Shown: in pieces, positions 1,741 to 4,932 of the stretch
Layout: the number at the start of each line of letters is the position of its first letter
Position numbering within the stretch: position 1 is the stretch's first letter
Assembly: GCA_021399405.1 (NCBI GenBank)
Contig: JAAFKL010000343.1
Coordinates: 1 to 8,581 of the forward strand
Direction of reading: 5' to 3'
Length of the DNA stretch: 8,581 bases
Source of the DNA: Candidatus Heimdallarchaeota archaeon
Lineage (GTDB): Archaea > Asgardarchaeota > Heimdallarchaeia > Heimdallarchaeales > Kariarchaeaceae
The notes under the pieces: model-generated
Told to the model about the DNA's origin: nothing
What the model saw: the letters and a program-made list of their open reading frames with translations, nothing else
Database searches by the model: none
Program-made: the position numbers and the translations under genes

Positions 1741-3204
1741 TTACTCCTTGTCTAAATCACTTAGGCTTGATAATTGCTTCAATCTACTTCGAAGATCAGA
1801 AACTAGATCCTTCTTCTTAACTTCAGGTTCTGCTTCTTCACTTATATCCATCATACCCAAACCTTGTCTTATTGAATCCACAATCCTTTGAGCATTTTGT
1901 AGCATTAAGGTACTGACATCAATTGCGAGAATTGCGATGCCATAATCCTGATTTGCACGTGCAAAATAAATATCAAAATCTGATAATGTAAAATGACCTA
2001 ATCCTCGATACTCAATATCTGCTAATTCTTTAAAGAATTCTTTTGGATTTAGTGTCATTACCACTTCTTTTAGCGTTTCCAATCTTTCATAATCAAGTGC
2101 ATTCTTACCAATTGCTAAGACCTGTTTACCTTCAGTAGAAAGGATTGAGAGCGCAACAATTTCCTCAGATTCTTGCATCCTTTTCTCGACGACTTCTGTT
2201 AGTTTATCAACCAACTCATCAGAGAGATCAAATAAACTTGGTGGAGTGGCATCTGCCAATTCATCTTTATCTTCAGCTGTGACCTTTTTGATTTCTTCAG
2301 CTTTCTCTTCCTTGACCTTTTCCACTTCTTTCACAGGAATTTCTGCTTTGGGTGGAGCCGAAGTAGGTGGAGGACGTGTTGTTGGGATTTCAACCGGTGC
2401 TGAAGTTGGAGGTGGCGCAGGTGGGGCGATTTCTACTGCTGATGATTTTACAGGTTCAGTTGTTACAGAAGTTTTTATTTCGAAAGATTCATCTTTGGCC
2501 TTTGGTAGAGGTGCTGATGGTACTTCACTTTGAGTCGTGGGTTTTGGTGGTGTGGTCGGACTTGATAAATTAGTAGCAGGTGTAGTTGAAGGCACAGGAA
2601 CAGTAGGCTGTGGAGTATCTTCTTTCTTGTCCATAGTGAGTTTCTGTGATGGCTCTTCAAAATCTTCAAAATTCTCAAATAGAATTCTTTTCACAGCCAG
2701 ATCAATAGAATTTGAAAATATGCTTGTTAGATAAAATTTGAATTTCTGAGGAGTAAGTTTATCTGCTTTCCTAAACAATCTCGCAGCTTTGTAGAAATGA
2801 GCCTTTAATCGACCTGATATTTCAGGATCATATTTATGAAATAGTACGTACAACTTAGGCGCTGGGTCAACGTTCTTTAAAATCTGAAGAATGTCGACAA
2901 AGTACTGATATGATTCCTCCAACCTTTCGATATCTTGAATATCAATTACAAAAATCATTGCTTTTGTTTGGTTGAACACTTCAGGTTTATTCAAATACGC
3001 CTCTCTGTAGTTTAATTGTCCTCCCATATCCCAAACGCTAAAATCTTTATCAAGATAAGATGTTGCATGACGTTCAATTTGTTTTGTAGGGGCTAGGTTT
3101 TTCAGATCATTAGCATCCATTTCTTCCATAGTTGCTTTGTAAATAGTGGTTTTACCTGCCTTGTCTAGACCCGCAAAAATAAGTTTTGTAATATTACCCG
3201 ACAC
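1741..3204 (-). CDS. Rag/Arf-like small GTPase fused by a Pro-rich linker to a roadblock-like domain
   Basis: Numbered from GTG 3204 (487 residues). Residues 2-175 form a Ras-superfamily G domain: P-loop GLDKAGKTT (12-20), switch I Thr40, WDMGGQ (58-63), HKYD in place of NKxD (123-126), and FYLTSIFSNSI (157-167), which recalls the TSI-containing end of Rag/Gtr G domains. WDMGGQ also recalls Arf. Residues about 192-322 are a disordered Pro/Thr/Ser linker with a repeated PPPTSAP, turning Lys/Glu-rich near its end. Residues about 325-449 (helix, IVALSILSTEGKQVLAIG, helix, then strands DFDIYFARA and YGIAILAID, helix) fit a roadblock/LC7 fold; a charged tail follows. The layout resembles Rag GTPases, whose G domain is followed by a roadblock domain, but with a long linker. 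A TATA box 25 bases upstream supports GTG 3204. A TTG at 3291 would add 29 residues unlike a GTPase N-terminus. Probably cytosolic; function inferred only. Confidence 0.85.
   Translation of the reverse strand: MSGNITKLIFAGLDKAGKTTIYKATMEEMDANDLKNLAPTKQIERHATSYLDKDFSVWDMGGQLNYREAYLNKPEVFNQTKAMIFVIDIQDIERLEESYQYFVDILQILKNVDPAPKLYVLFHKYDPEISGRLKAHFYKAARLFRKADKLTPQKFKFYLTSIFSNSIDLAVKRILFENFEDFEEPSQKLTMDKKEDTPQPTVPVPSTTPATNLSSPTTPPKPTTQSEVPSAPLPKAKDESFEIKTSVTTEPVKSSAVEIAPPAPPPTSAPVEIPTTRPPPTSAPPKAEIPVKEVEKVKEEKAEEIKKVTAEDKDELADATPPSLFDLSDELVDKLTEVVEKRMQESEEIVALSILSTEGKQVLAIGKNALDYERLETLKEVVMTLNPKEFFKELADIEYRGLGHFTLSDFDIYFARANQDYGIAILAIDVSTLMLQNAQRIVDSIRQGLGMMDISEEAEPEVKKKDLVSDLRSRLKQLSSLSDLDKE
1744..1749 (-). 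promoter_or_regulatory. Shine-Dalgarno AAGGAG overlapping the GTPase stop codon
   Basis: The final Lys-Glu codons of the GTPase gene (AAG GAG, followed by TAA) form a complete Shine-Dalgarno sequence for the downstream gene, 8 bases before its TTG start at 1735. It decides that start, since no ATG is available, and implies translational coupling of the pair. Confidence 0.75.
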
Positions 3205-3225
3205 AGCTATATGTTGACTTTCGAT

Positions 3226-3233
3226 TATATATA
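3226..3233 (-). promoter_or_regulatory. TATA box of the GTPase operon
   Basis: TATATATA is centred about 25 bases upstream of the GTG at 3204 on the minus strand, the normal distance from an archaeal TATA box to the transcription start. This predicts a leaderless or nearly leaderless mRNA beginning at that GTG. It also argues against the TTG at 3291, which lies upstream of the box. Confidence 0.55.
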
Positions 3234-3397
3234 GAAAATTCTTTTTGAATCGTTCAATGATTTTTACATCGCAATGATTTATTTTGATCAATCATTCGAA
3301 GCTAGATCGGATTTTTATCAAAACACATTTTGAATATTTATCAGTTGATTTTTGTTAAATTGTAATTGTTCGATTAATCACATCAGTATTATATTTC

Positions 3398-3440: not shown

Positions 3441-4118
3441 ATGATTATTTATGATTACTCTTTTCAATATCATATCAAACCTTTCAATGTAATCACAGAT
3501 CCCTTAGAAATTCGAGATTTTATTTATGATACCACTGCAGTTGAAATCATTAGAAATACTTCAATCCGTATTTTATTGACTGTGAATAGTGAAGAAATGG
3601 TAATTCATTATCCTTCAGATGTGGCAGATCATATTCTAGATGATGTTGAGAAGGAATTGAGAAGTATACATGAAAAAATGAGTCTTTTTATTGCTGATAC
3701 TATAATTACTCTTGACATCTTAGTTAGTGAGAATGTAGATTCAAGCGATCAATCTCGTAAACTCATTATAATTGATTTAATCAGTTTCAATGGAGTAGAT
3801 TACAGAGCCACCGAATTACGAACTAGAAGGAGGTTAACCAAGACATTTTTCCAAGGATTCATTTCTTCTCCAAATTTAACAATTTCTGAATTAATAAATG
3901 TCTACAATTCCCAACATGAGTTAGATTCATCAAATGATAAGGATAAAGGAATAACTAGACAAGAATTATTTGGTACTTATCGCTCTGAATCAAATGGTAA
4001 AAAATGGGTTGAGATTTTGATAAGAGACGAAACATCATCATATACTGATGAAAATAAGGATGAATGGTCATTGATTGATCTTCAACAAATTCCTGACGAT
4101 ATTAGAGCATTGCTTTGA
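3441..4118 (+). CDS. Uncharacterised protein, probable inactive nucleotidyltransferase of the ligase/capping-enzyme superfamily
   Basis: No named family was recognised, but the 225 residues follow the motif order of ATP-dependent ligases and mRNA guanylyltransferases. RNTSIRILLTV (38-48) lines up with motif I, E-K-x-DG-[IV]-R-x-LL. LFIADTIITLDIL (82-94) lines up with the LLDGEIV motif III. RKLIIIDLISFNGVDY (106-121) followed by LRTRRRL matches the FDIxxFNG...RR segment (IIIa), the clearest match. KGITRQ (169-174) sits at the EG[LI]V-x-K motif IV, and Y180 with KKWVEI (187-192) at the Y...KWLKxK motif V. Each catalytic residue seems replaced: motif I Lys and DG by R-N-T-S, motif III Glu by Thr, motif IV Glu/Lys by Lys/Gln, motif V Lys by Glu. 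Nucleotidyl transfer is therefore unlikely; a binding role is possible. The alignment was made by eye. The C-terminus is acidic. Its stop is 4 bases from the convergent gene's. Confidence 0.6.
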   Translation: MIIYDYSFQYHIKPFNVITDPLEIRDFIYDTTAVEIIRNTSIRILLTVNSEEMVIHYPSDVADHILDDVEKELRSIHEKMSLFIADTIITLDILVSENVDSSDQSRKLIIIDLISFNGVDYRATELRTRRRLTKTFFQGFISSPNLTISELINVYNSQHELDSSNDKDKGITRQELFGTYRSESNGKKWVEILIRDETSSYTDENKDEWSLIDLQQIPDDIRALL

Positions 4119-4122
4119 ATTT

Positions 4123-4932
4123 TTACTTGTAATACTTATCGATGTAATTTTTCATTTTAGTATCATCAGAATGTGTGTTTAATTCCTCAAGATACTCCCA
4201 AAGTTTTTTGACTTCTGGAATTAATTTCCATTCTTCAGGTTTGGTTGAATATTTTTCTCCTTGATTTATGAACTTGTAAAAATGAACTGTACATCCTCGG
4301 TATTCTTGATTATCTCCTGCCCAGCGTGTAACGTTTCCAGGGAAGATACCTGCAATCTTCCATCCCCATTGTTTAAAACATAGAAATTGGGTAATGCTAT
4401 GCCAAGTTTCACAAAAAGAAGTCATATACTCTGCATCCGTTTCATCTTCAATTCTTTTTAAATGGTCAAACGCGATAACCATCAAGCTTTCACCTGTCTC
4501 ATCCTTTCTATATTTAGGATCTACACAACCAAGACTATATTCAACATGAAGATTTCGATCATCCTTGGTTAACATAGAGGCACCAATGATTTTCTTTGTT
4601 TCAACATCTTCAATAATACTCATACAATGTATTTTGTCATTATCCGCTTCTTCCCAATTTTCTGAAAATGTAATATTTTTATCATATAATTTTGGATCGT
4701 GGACCCAATCATATCGCGTGCTTGAACCATATAGCTCGGGGTAGGATTTTCTCCAAAGTTTAGAGACTTCCTCAGCATCGATTTTGGTTAACATCCGAAT
4801 TTTGAATTTTTTATTGGGAAGTTCCATCTCGAACCTTGGCCAGATGATCTGCTTTTTTTTGATATCCCTTGTTTCGCAAGTTTTACCCATATTTGAGTAA
4901 GTTTTGTTGTTTGTTGTGTCAAAATTTACCAT
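4123..4932 (-). CDS. GNAT-family N-acetyltransferase
   Basis: The 269-residue protein has a GNAT layout from about residue 42. FKIRMLTKIDAEEVSKLW (43-60) is the first strand and helix, IIGASMLT (115-122) and LHVEYSLGCVDPKYRK (128-143) are the central strands leading into the acetyl-CoA pyrophosphate loop (DETGES, 144-149), and a helix follows. The loop lacks the usual Arg/Gln at the first place of R/Q-x-x-G-x-G/A. The later part is rich in Trp, His and Cys: FCETWH (173-178), TQ, GWKIAGIFPGN (190-200), TRW, YRGCTVHFYK (211-220). These look like a strongly conserved subfamily signature and probably line the acceptor site. The substrate is unknown. The first about 40 residues are polar and may be disordered; a shorter form from Met15 is possible, but the TATA box position favours ATG 4932. 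Confidence 0.75.
   Translation of the reverse strand: MVNFDTTNNKTYSNMGKTCETRDIKKKQIIWPRFEMELPNKKFKIRMLTKIDAEEVSKLWRKSYPELYGSSTRYDWVHDPKLYDKNITFSENWEEADNDKIHCMSIIEDVETKKIIGASMLTKDDRNLHVEYSLGCVDPKYRKDETGESLMVIAFDHLKRIEDETDAEYMTSFCETWHSITQFLCFKQWGWKIAGIFPGNVTRWAGDNQEYRGCTVHFYKFINQGEKYSTKPEEWKLIPEVKKLWEYLEELNTHSDDTKMKNYIDKYYK

Follow-up and report, generated by a model that had tools for sequence, protein, structure and literature searches.

The 8,581-nucleotide stretch of contig JAAFKL010000343.1 from a Candidatus Heimdallarchaeota archaeon (GenBank assembly GCA_021399405.1), referred to here as the window, raises the question of whether a single archaeal gene at positions 1741–3204 encodes a Rag-type GTPase that carries its own roadblock domain and, if it does, how such a protein would work. 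Eukaryotes use Rag GTPases to couple growth control to nutrient state. An Asgard relative that has both domains in a single gene, but on a loose tether, provides a direct comparison for which part of the Rag system (platform, switch or coupling) is old, and bears on the origin of the paired, hinge-coupled Rag switch. An earlier annotation made from the letters alone, the sequence-only reading, had described the product as a Rag/Arf-like GTPase joined to a roadblock-like domain by a long Pro-rich linker, possibly an Asgard form of a GTPase carrying its own partner or effector domain. Our results support this interpretation overall, and sequence comparison and structure prediction point to a complete Rag-type G domain, a roadblock fold, a disordered tether and a conserved C-terminal tail.

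A search at E≤1e-3 recovered 49 proteins, including that of the window, and the relatives with source names came from Heimdallarchaeota and Kariarchaeaceae. We aligned 38 of the 49, excluding seven partial sequences (P0007, P0012, P0023, P0031, P0033, P0043 and P0044) and four distant ones (P0046–P0049). The linker, the C-terminal domain and the tail were kept in every aligned row; three rows (P0009, P0016 and P0024) start downstream of the P-loop, probably due to start calling. The coordinates proposed for the gene were correct and its strand, which had been left unsaid, is the minus strand, the plus-strand frame across the same interval being crowded with stops and therefore non-coding. The open reading frame (ORF) list of the window gives the gene as 1741..3291 with a TTG start (516 amino acids, aa). 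The alignment favours the GTG at 3204 as start, because 18 rows begin at the corresponding residue and the only much longer N-termini, in P0006 (by 30 residues) and P0030 (by 24), are unlike each other; the other rows start a few residues off. Residue numbers follow the 487-aa protein that begins at this GTG.

All five GTPase motifs were present in the window protein (Table 1), including the TSI and WDMGGQ segments noticed previously, and Gln63 of WDxGGQ was kept throughout the alignment, in which the G domain had a mean pairwise identity of 0.675. The HKYD loop was also found, but it is not the variant that it had been taken for: it lines up with HKMD of Gtr1 and RagA and is thus the Rag form of G4 rather than an oddity, while NKxD or TKxD stands at G4 in those Arf- and Rab-like rows that extend to it. 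An arginine at position 45, five residues past the switch I threonine, was observed in all 38 rows as well as in LokiRagO and LokiRagM, and is absent in Gtr1 and RagA. The Pfam model PF04670 (Gtr1_RagA) matched the window protein at 95 bits (cut-off 22) versus 68 bits for Arf. Both models matched all 38 members (E≤0.01), and PF04670 also gave matches in E. coli and M. jannaschii, two of the 14 control genomes, so that this model by itself is no proof. By sequence, the closest solved chains were LokiRagO (100.9 bits), LokiRagM (82.3), fission-yeast Gtr2 (55.1) and Arl3 (47.8), and a search with the family profile gave a tie between Arf1 (58.2) and RagA (57.8), although its Rag matches spanned residues 5–190 and its Arf matches ended near 107.

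The sequence-only reading had left the placement of the G domain among Arf, Rag/Gtr and Asgard GTPases to a tree. With 43 G domains, including eukaryotic Gtr1, RagA and Gtr2 and no MglA sequence, the Rag-like rows, which comprised the family and these three proteins, stood apart, at 100/98, from the rows of Arf, Arf-like and Rab-like proteins. When three long-branch rows and the two fragments of eukaryotic Arf were dropped, the remaining 38 rows gave a second tree with a Rag-like versus Arf/Rab-like split at 97/90. Neither tree fixed the branching order of the groups inside the Rag-like side, and in both the eukaryotic Rags clustered with L042, another Asgard protein, rather than with the window family. 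Membership of the Arf family was rejected on the G4 motif and the tree, though the Arf Pfam model matches too.

For the C-terminal domain, AlphaFold2 (AF2) predicted the order helix, two strands, helix, three strands, helix, and the model matched roadblock structures in Foldseek and VIA-align, in agreement with the roadblock-like call made earlier. Mean pairwise identity over this domain was 0.585. The predicted fold was not accompanied by a match to the corresponding sequence model, PF03259 (Roadblock/LC7): the window protein had no hit to it at E≤0.1, and it was absent from the 12 families matched by any aligned member at E≤0.01. A stand-alone roadblock-type protein homologous to the family C-terminal domain (hhalign probability 97.8) was observed in genome G037 (L072:861-1415, minus strand), with no Pfam match; as this paralogue occurred in only 1 of 227 genomes, we rejected a stand-alone roadblock partner as a general feature.

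The linker comprises 124 residues in the window protein (22% Pro; 53% Pro, Ser, Thr and Ala) instead of the approximately 130 that had been estimated, while its disordered, Pro-rich character and the repeated PPPTSAP, present in two copies, were borne out. In the AF2 model the predicted local distance difference test score (pLDDT) was below 50 across most of residues 186–308, indicating an unordered linker. Across the alignment its length ranged from 53 to 178 residues (median 123), with a mean pairwise identity of 0.249 and a Pro/Ser/Thr/Ala fraction of 0.38–0.65 in most rows, the exceptions being P0041 (0.21) and P0045 (0.24). A long stretch retained without conservation of its sequence fits a spacer.

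The tail that follows the roadblock domain had a mean pairwise identity of 0.636 over residues 466–481 and carries a motif of approximately DL(V/I)xDL(R/K)SRL, which can still be made out by eye in L037, L040 and L041, the most distant members. Each of the six genomes searched with this motif gave one significant match, the next best having an E value of 0.45. A helix was predicted here, with a pLDDT of about 51–66 by blocks. We do not claim an amphipathic membrane helix, because the hydrophobic moment was no higher than in 5000 shuffled versions; the tail probably docks a partner.

As for how widespread the fusion is, which the sequence-only reading had proposed to survey, a family member was present in 12 of 227 genomes (phylum of G001) at E≤1e-45. 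The best E value was ≤3e-83 in ten of the 12, and the members in G059 and G061 were distant.

We consider it probable that the protein is a Rag-like GTPase built on a roadblock platform, most likely a homodimer, with two loosely tethered switches and a partner docked at the tail. The roadblock domains would pair to form a stable platform, which may be open to other roadblock, longin or helical partners, and the two GTP switches would be held on tethers long enough for independent movement. The stiff hinge that couples the two nucleotide states in eukaryotic Rags would be absent, and since a tether of about 120 residues takes its place, the two switches would not be lockable as they are in Rags. 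Effectors may read GTP loading at the G domains, hydrolysis would proceed via Gln63 with the aid of a GTPase-activating protein (GAP), and the tail could be a helix at which a fixed partner docks, so that the switch would be placed at a scaffold like that of Rag–Ragulator, but loosely coupled. More tentatively, we propose as a possible though doubtful extension that this 'tethered Rag' is either ancestral or an alternative design: the roadblock dimer would be only a scaffold, the G domains would act independently on long disordered leashes, and the C-terminal helix would connect the platform to separate roadblock proteins assembled in the manner of Ragulator. In that case, either the interlocked Rag state arose later, through a shortening of the leash to a one-proline hinge and duplication of the subunit, or the family lost the interlock.

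The same protein might instead pair with a different one, either a separate roadblock protein or a Rag-like one, to give a heterodimer like RagA–RagC. Eukaryotic Rags are heterodimeric (PMC12557722), a Rag-like pair encoded in an MKD1 operon is predicted to heterodimerize (PMC10933270), the stand-alone paralogue exists in G037, and each of nine genomes searched held 3–9 PF03259 roadblock matches. That paralogue is nevertheless confined to one genome, none of the 9 window ORFs scanned matched PF03259, and 8 of the 12 family genomes had no second PF04670 match above 53 bits, the family gene scoring 79.6–97.8 bits there, which lowers the likelihood of a RagA/RagC-style pair in those eight, although the genomes may be incomplete; G008, G032, G059 and G061 had further matches of at least 58 bits. 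On balance we regard the heterodimer as rather unlikely.

Self-regulation as in MglA–MglB, with the fused roadblock domain folding back on the G domain as a GAP or guanine nucleotide exchange factor, tether permitting, seems to us improbable. The bacterial system also combines a small GTPase with a roadblock protein, and the MglB fold was the top match of the C-terminal domain by Z, but MglA and MglB are two separate proteins versus the single chain found here. Still further down we place an Arf-like membrane GTPase with an accessory roadblock domain: despite the Arf Pfam matches, these cover only about residues 3–111, the G4 motif is HKxD and not the NKxD of Arf/Arl/ArfR in all rows, and the family lies apart from Arf/Rab-like rows in the trees, making this reading very improbable. 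The homodimeric, loosely tethered GTPase remains the one that we prefer.

Table 1. Features of the tethered GTPase gene, its downstream neighbour and roadblock genes near two distant family members
Feature	Residues	Position	Strand	Remarks
Complete Rag-like GTPase gene (G domain, linker, predicted roadblock domain, conserved tail)		1741..3204	-	487 aa, GTG start
G domain	5-180	2665..3192	-	PF04670 95 bits; AF2 pLDDT 66-91 by blocks of ten
P-loop (G1) GLDKAGKTT	12-20	3145..3171	-	35/38 rows
Switch I segment TKQIER	40-45	3070..3087	-	T40 and R45 in 38/38 rows
Switch II (G3) WDMGGQ, catalytic-type Gln63	58-63	3016..3033	-	WD(L/M/F)GGQ in 38/38 rows
G4 HKYD, Rag-type HKxD	123-126	2827..2838	-	HKxD in 38/38 rows
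G5 TSI	160-162	2719..2727	-	38/38 rows
Disordered Pro/Thr/Ser linker	185-308	2281..2652	-	Identity 0.249; pLDDT mostly <50
First PPPTSAP	264-270	2395..2415	-	
Second PPPTSAP	278-284	2353..2373	-	
Roadblock-fold domain (predicted)	324-450	1855..2235	-	AF2, Foldseek, VIA-align
Poorly conserved, partly acidic spacer	451-464	1813..1854	-	
Conserved C-terminal helical tail (predicted helix) KDLVSDLRSRLKQLSSLSDLD	465-485	1750..1812	-	38/38 rows
Immediate downstream gene, encoding a TerB-like protein of 116 aa		1385..1735	-	PF05099 18 bits, below cut-off 24.4
Stand-alone roadblock gene near L040 member		L040:585-1178	+	
Stand-alone roadblock gene near L040 member		L040:1240-1551	-	
Stand-alone roadblock gene near L041 member		L041:7807-8103	+	
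Stand-alone roadblock gene near L041 member		L041:8182-8673	-	

The downstream TerB-like gene, whose product has two DGxIxxDEAAxL repeats, is preceded by a Shine–Dalgarno-like AAGGAG within the final codons of the GTPase gene. Its adjacency to the GTPase gene was seen directly in the window and in L001, and of 12 TerB-like matches, the window's own included, seven had a longest contig of the same size as that of a family GTPase match. We rejected the neighbour as a universal partner, as another gene lies 3′ of the GTPase in L029 and L030 and TerB-like relatives are multi-copy, with up to 5 in each of the 15 of 227 genomes with a match. Elsewhere in the window lie genes for Bud32, an rRNA modification protein of TSR3/DUF367 type and an ISH3-like transposase that scores under the NCBIfam ISH3 cut-off, and the neighbourhood drifts: TSR3 was found at 5 of 15 loci and Bud32 at 2 (window included), the compared stretches being unequal in length. 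Adjoining Bud32, positions 370–624 on the minus strand encode an N-terminal aldo/keto reductase fragment of 84 aa (PF00248, 29.9 bits, 48 of 291 positions), apparently a truncated gene. Proteins of 225 aa (3441–4118, plus strand) and 269 aa (4123–4932, minus strand) had no Pfam match at E≤0.1 and no counterpart in the 14 related loci compared. Promoter-like sites were at chance level in our scan (10 versus a mean of 9.2 in shuffles), and there were 2 terminator-like sites versus 1.0 in shuffles.

Genome G061 also holds two convergent neighbouring Rag-like genes, L042:889-2109 (minus strand) and L055:1444-3141 (plus strand), at about 246.2–249.1 kb of contig C55, with HKMD and HKVD, respectively, as G4. 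L042 scored 85 bits with Gtr1, 81 with RagA and 55 with LokiRagO, and joined eukaryotic Gtr1/RagA at 98/94 once long branches were removed, while L055 was a long branch of unsure position in the first tree. The two genes are an Asgard candidate for a relative of eukaryotic RagA/RagC and are perhaps more interesting than the tethered GTPase, L042 being nearer to the eukaryotic Rags than the window family is. G059 has a similar gene of 625 aa (L076), with only an apparent short remnant of a second gene beside it. The distant family members of G059 and G061, L040:4954-6282 (plus strand) and L041:3038-4351 (minus strand), have lost the switch II glutamine (DAGGG, DTGGG) and L041 also carries NKID, but both retain the linker, C-terminal domain and tail. 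In G059 and G061, the distant member has two stand-alone roadblock genes no more than about 5 kb away (Table 1). In each genome, one of these also matches Pfam LAMTOR5 (28.0 and 29.9 bits, cut-off 27) and one MAPKK1_Int, that is MP1/LAMTOR3 (29.2 and 30.0 bits, cut-off 25), although the generic Robl_LC7 outscores both models. In the other seven of the nine genomes searched, the contig stretch of the family gene had no PF03259 match; the G059 and G061 loci are worth a look as a Ragulator-like gene cluster.

A fusion of a GTPase with a roadblock domain is as such already known in Asgard archaea, since Tran et al. (2024) report that 26 of 74 MKD1 GTPase sequences also carry a roadblock or a longin domain, and describe a Rag-like class that lies near Arf (PMC10933270). 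The fusions described in Lokiarchaeum and MKD1 likewise combine a Rag-like G domain, near Arf, with a roadblock domain (PMC4917890, Box 1; PMC10933270), and the window family shares this arrangement, with its PF04670 match well above the cut-off and a predicted roadblock fold in the same chain. The passages describing those fusions mention no long Pro-rich tether or conserved tail, and neither 'linker' nor 'proline' occurs in the main text of PMC10933270. Nine Lokiarchaeal Rag-like frames were read (L004–L008 and L010–L013; L009 yielded none), of which six were 310–328 residues long and therefore too short for such a linker plus two domains, the other three being cut at a contig end or extended at the N-terminus. 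According to the title of PDB entry 8yl2, LokiRagO is a RagA-like GTPase of Lokiarchaeota that forms a homotetramer with GTP. Its G-domain match began at residue 42–43 and its C-terminal domain match at 208, in a chain numbered to 341, which leaves no room for a long linker; our knowledge of LokiRagO and LokiRagM comes from PDB titles and sequence and structure matches. Open-licence PubMed Central (PMC) searches found no paper on these two proteins and none on an Asgard Rag-like GTPase with a linker. As far as those searches reach, the Heimdallarchaeota-type family with its long tether and conserved tail is a new form. With the eukaryotic Rag/Gtr proteins (RagA–D, Gtr1/2) it shares PF04670, HKxD, a C-terminal roadblock domain and the same side of the tree relative to Arf/Rab. 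In Rag subunits, however, the roadblock domain mediates heterodimerization, and the overall conformation is governed by a proline that bridges G domain and roadblock domain directly (PMC12557722), whereas all 38 members of the window family have a long linker in that place. Because it lacks this short hinge and the heterodimeric eukaryotic Rags group with L042, the window family is not classed as a eukaryotic Rag, though it has both of the domains with which a Rag works.
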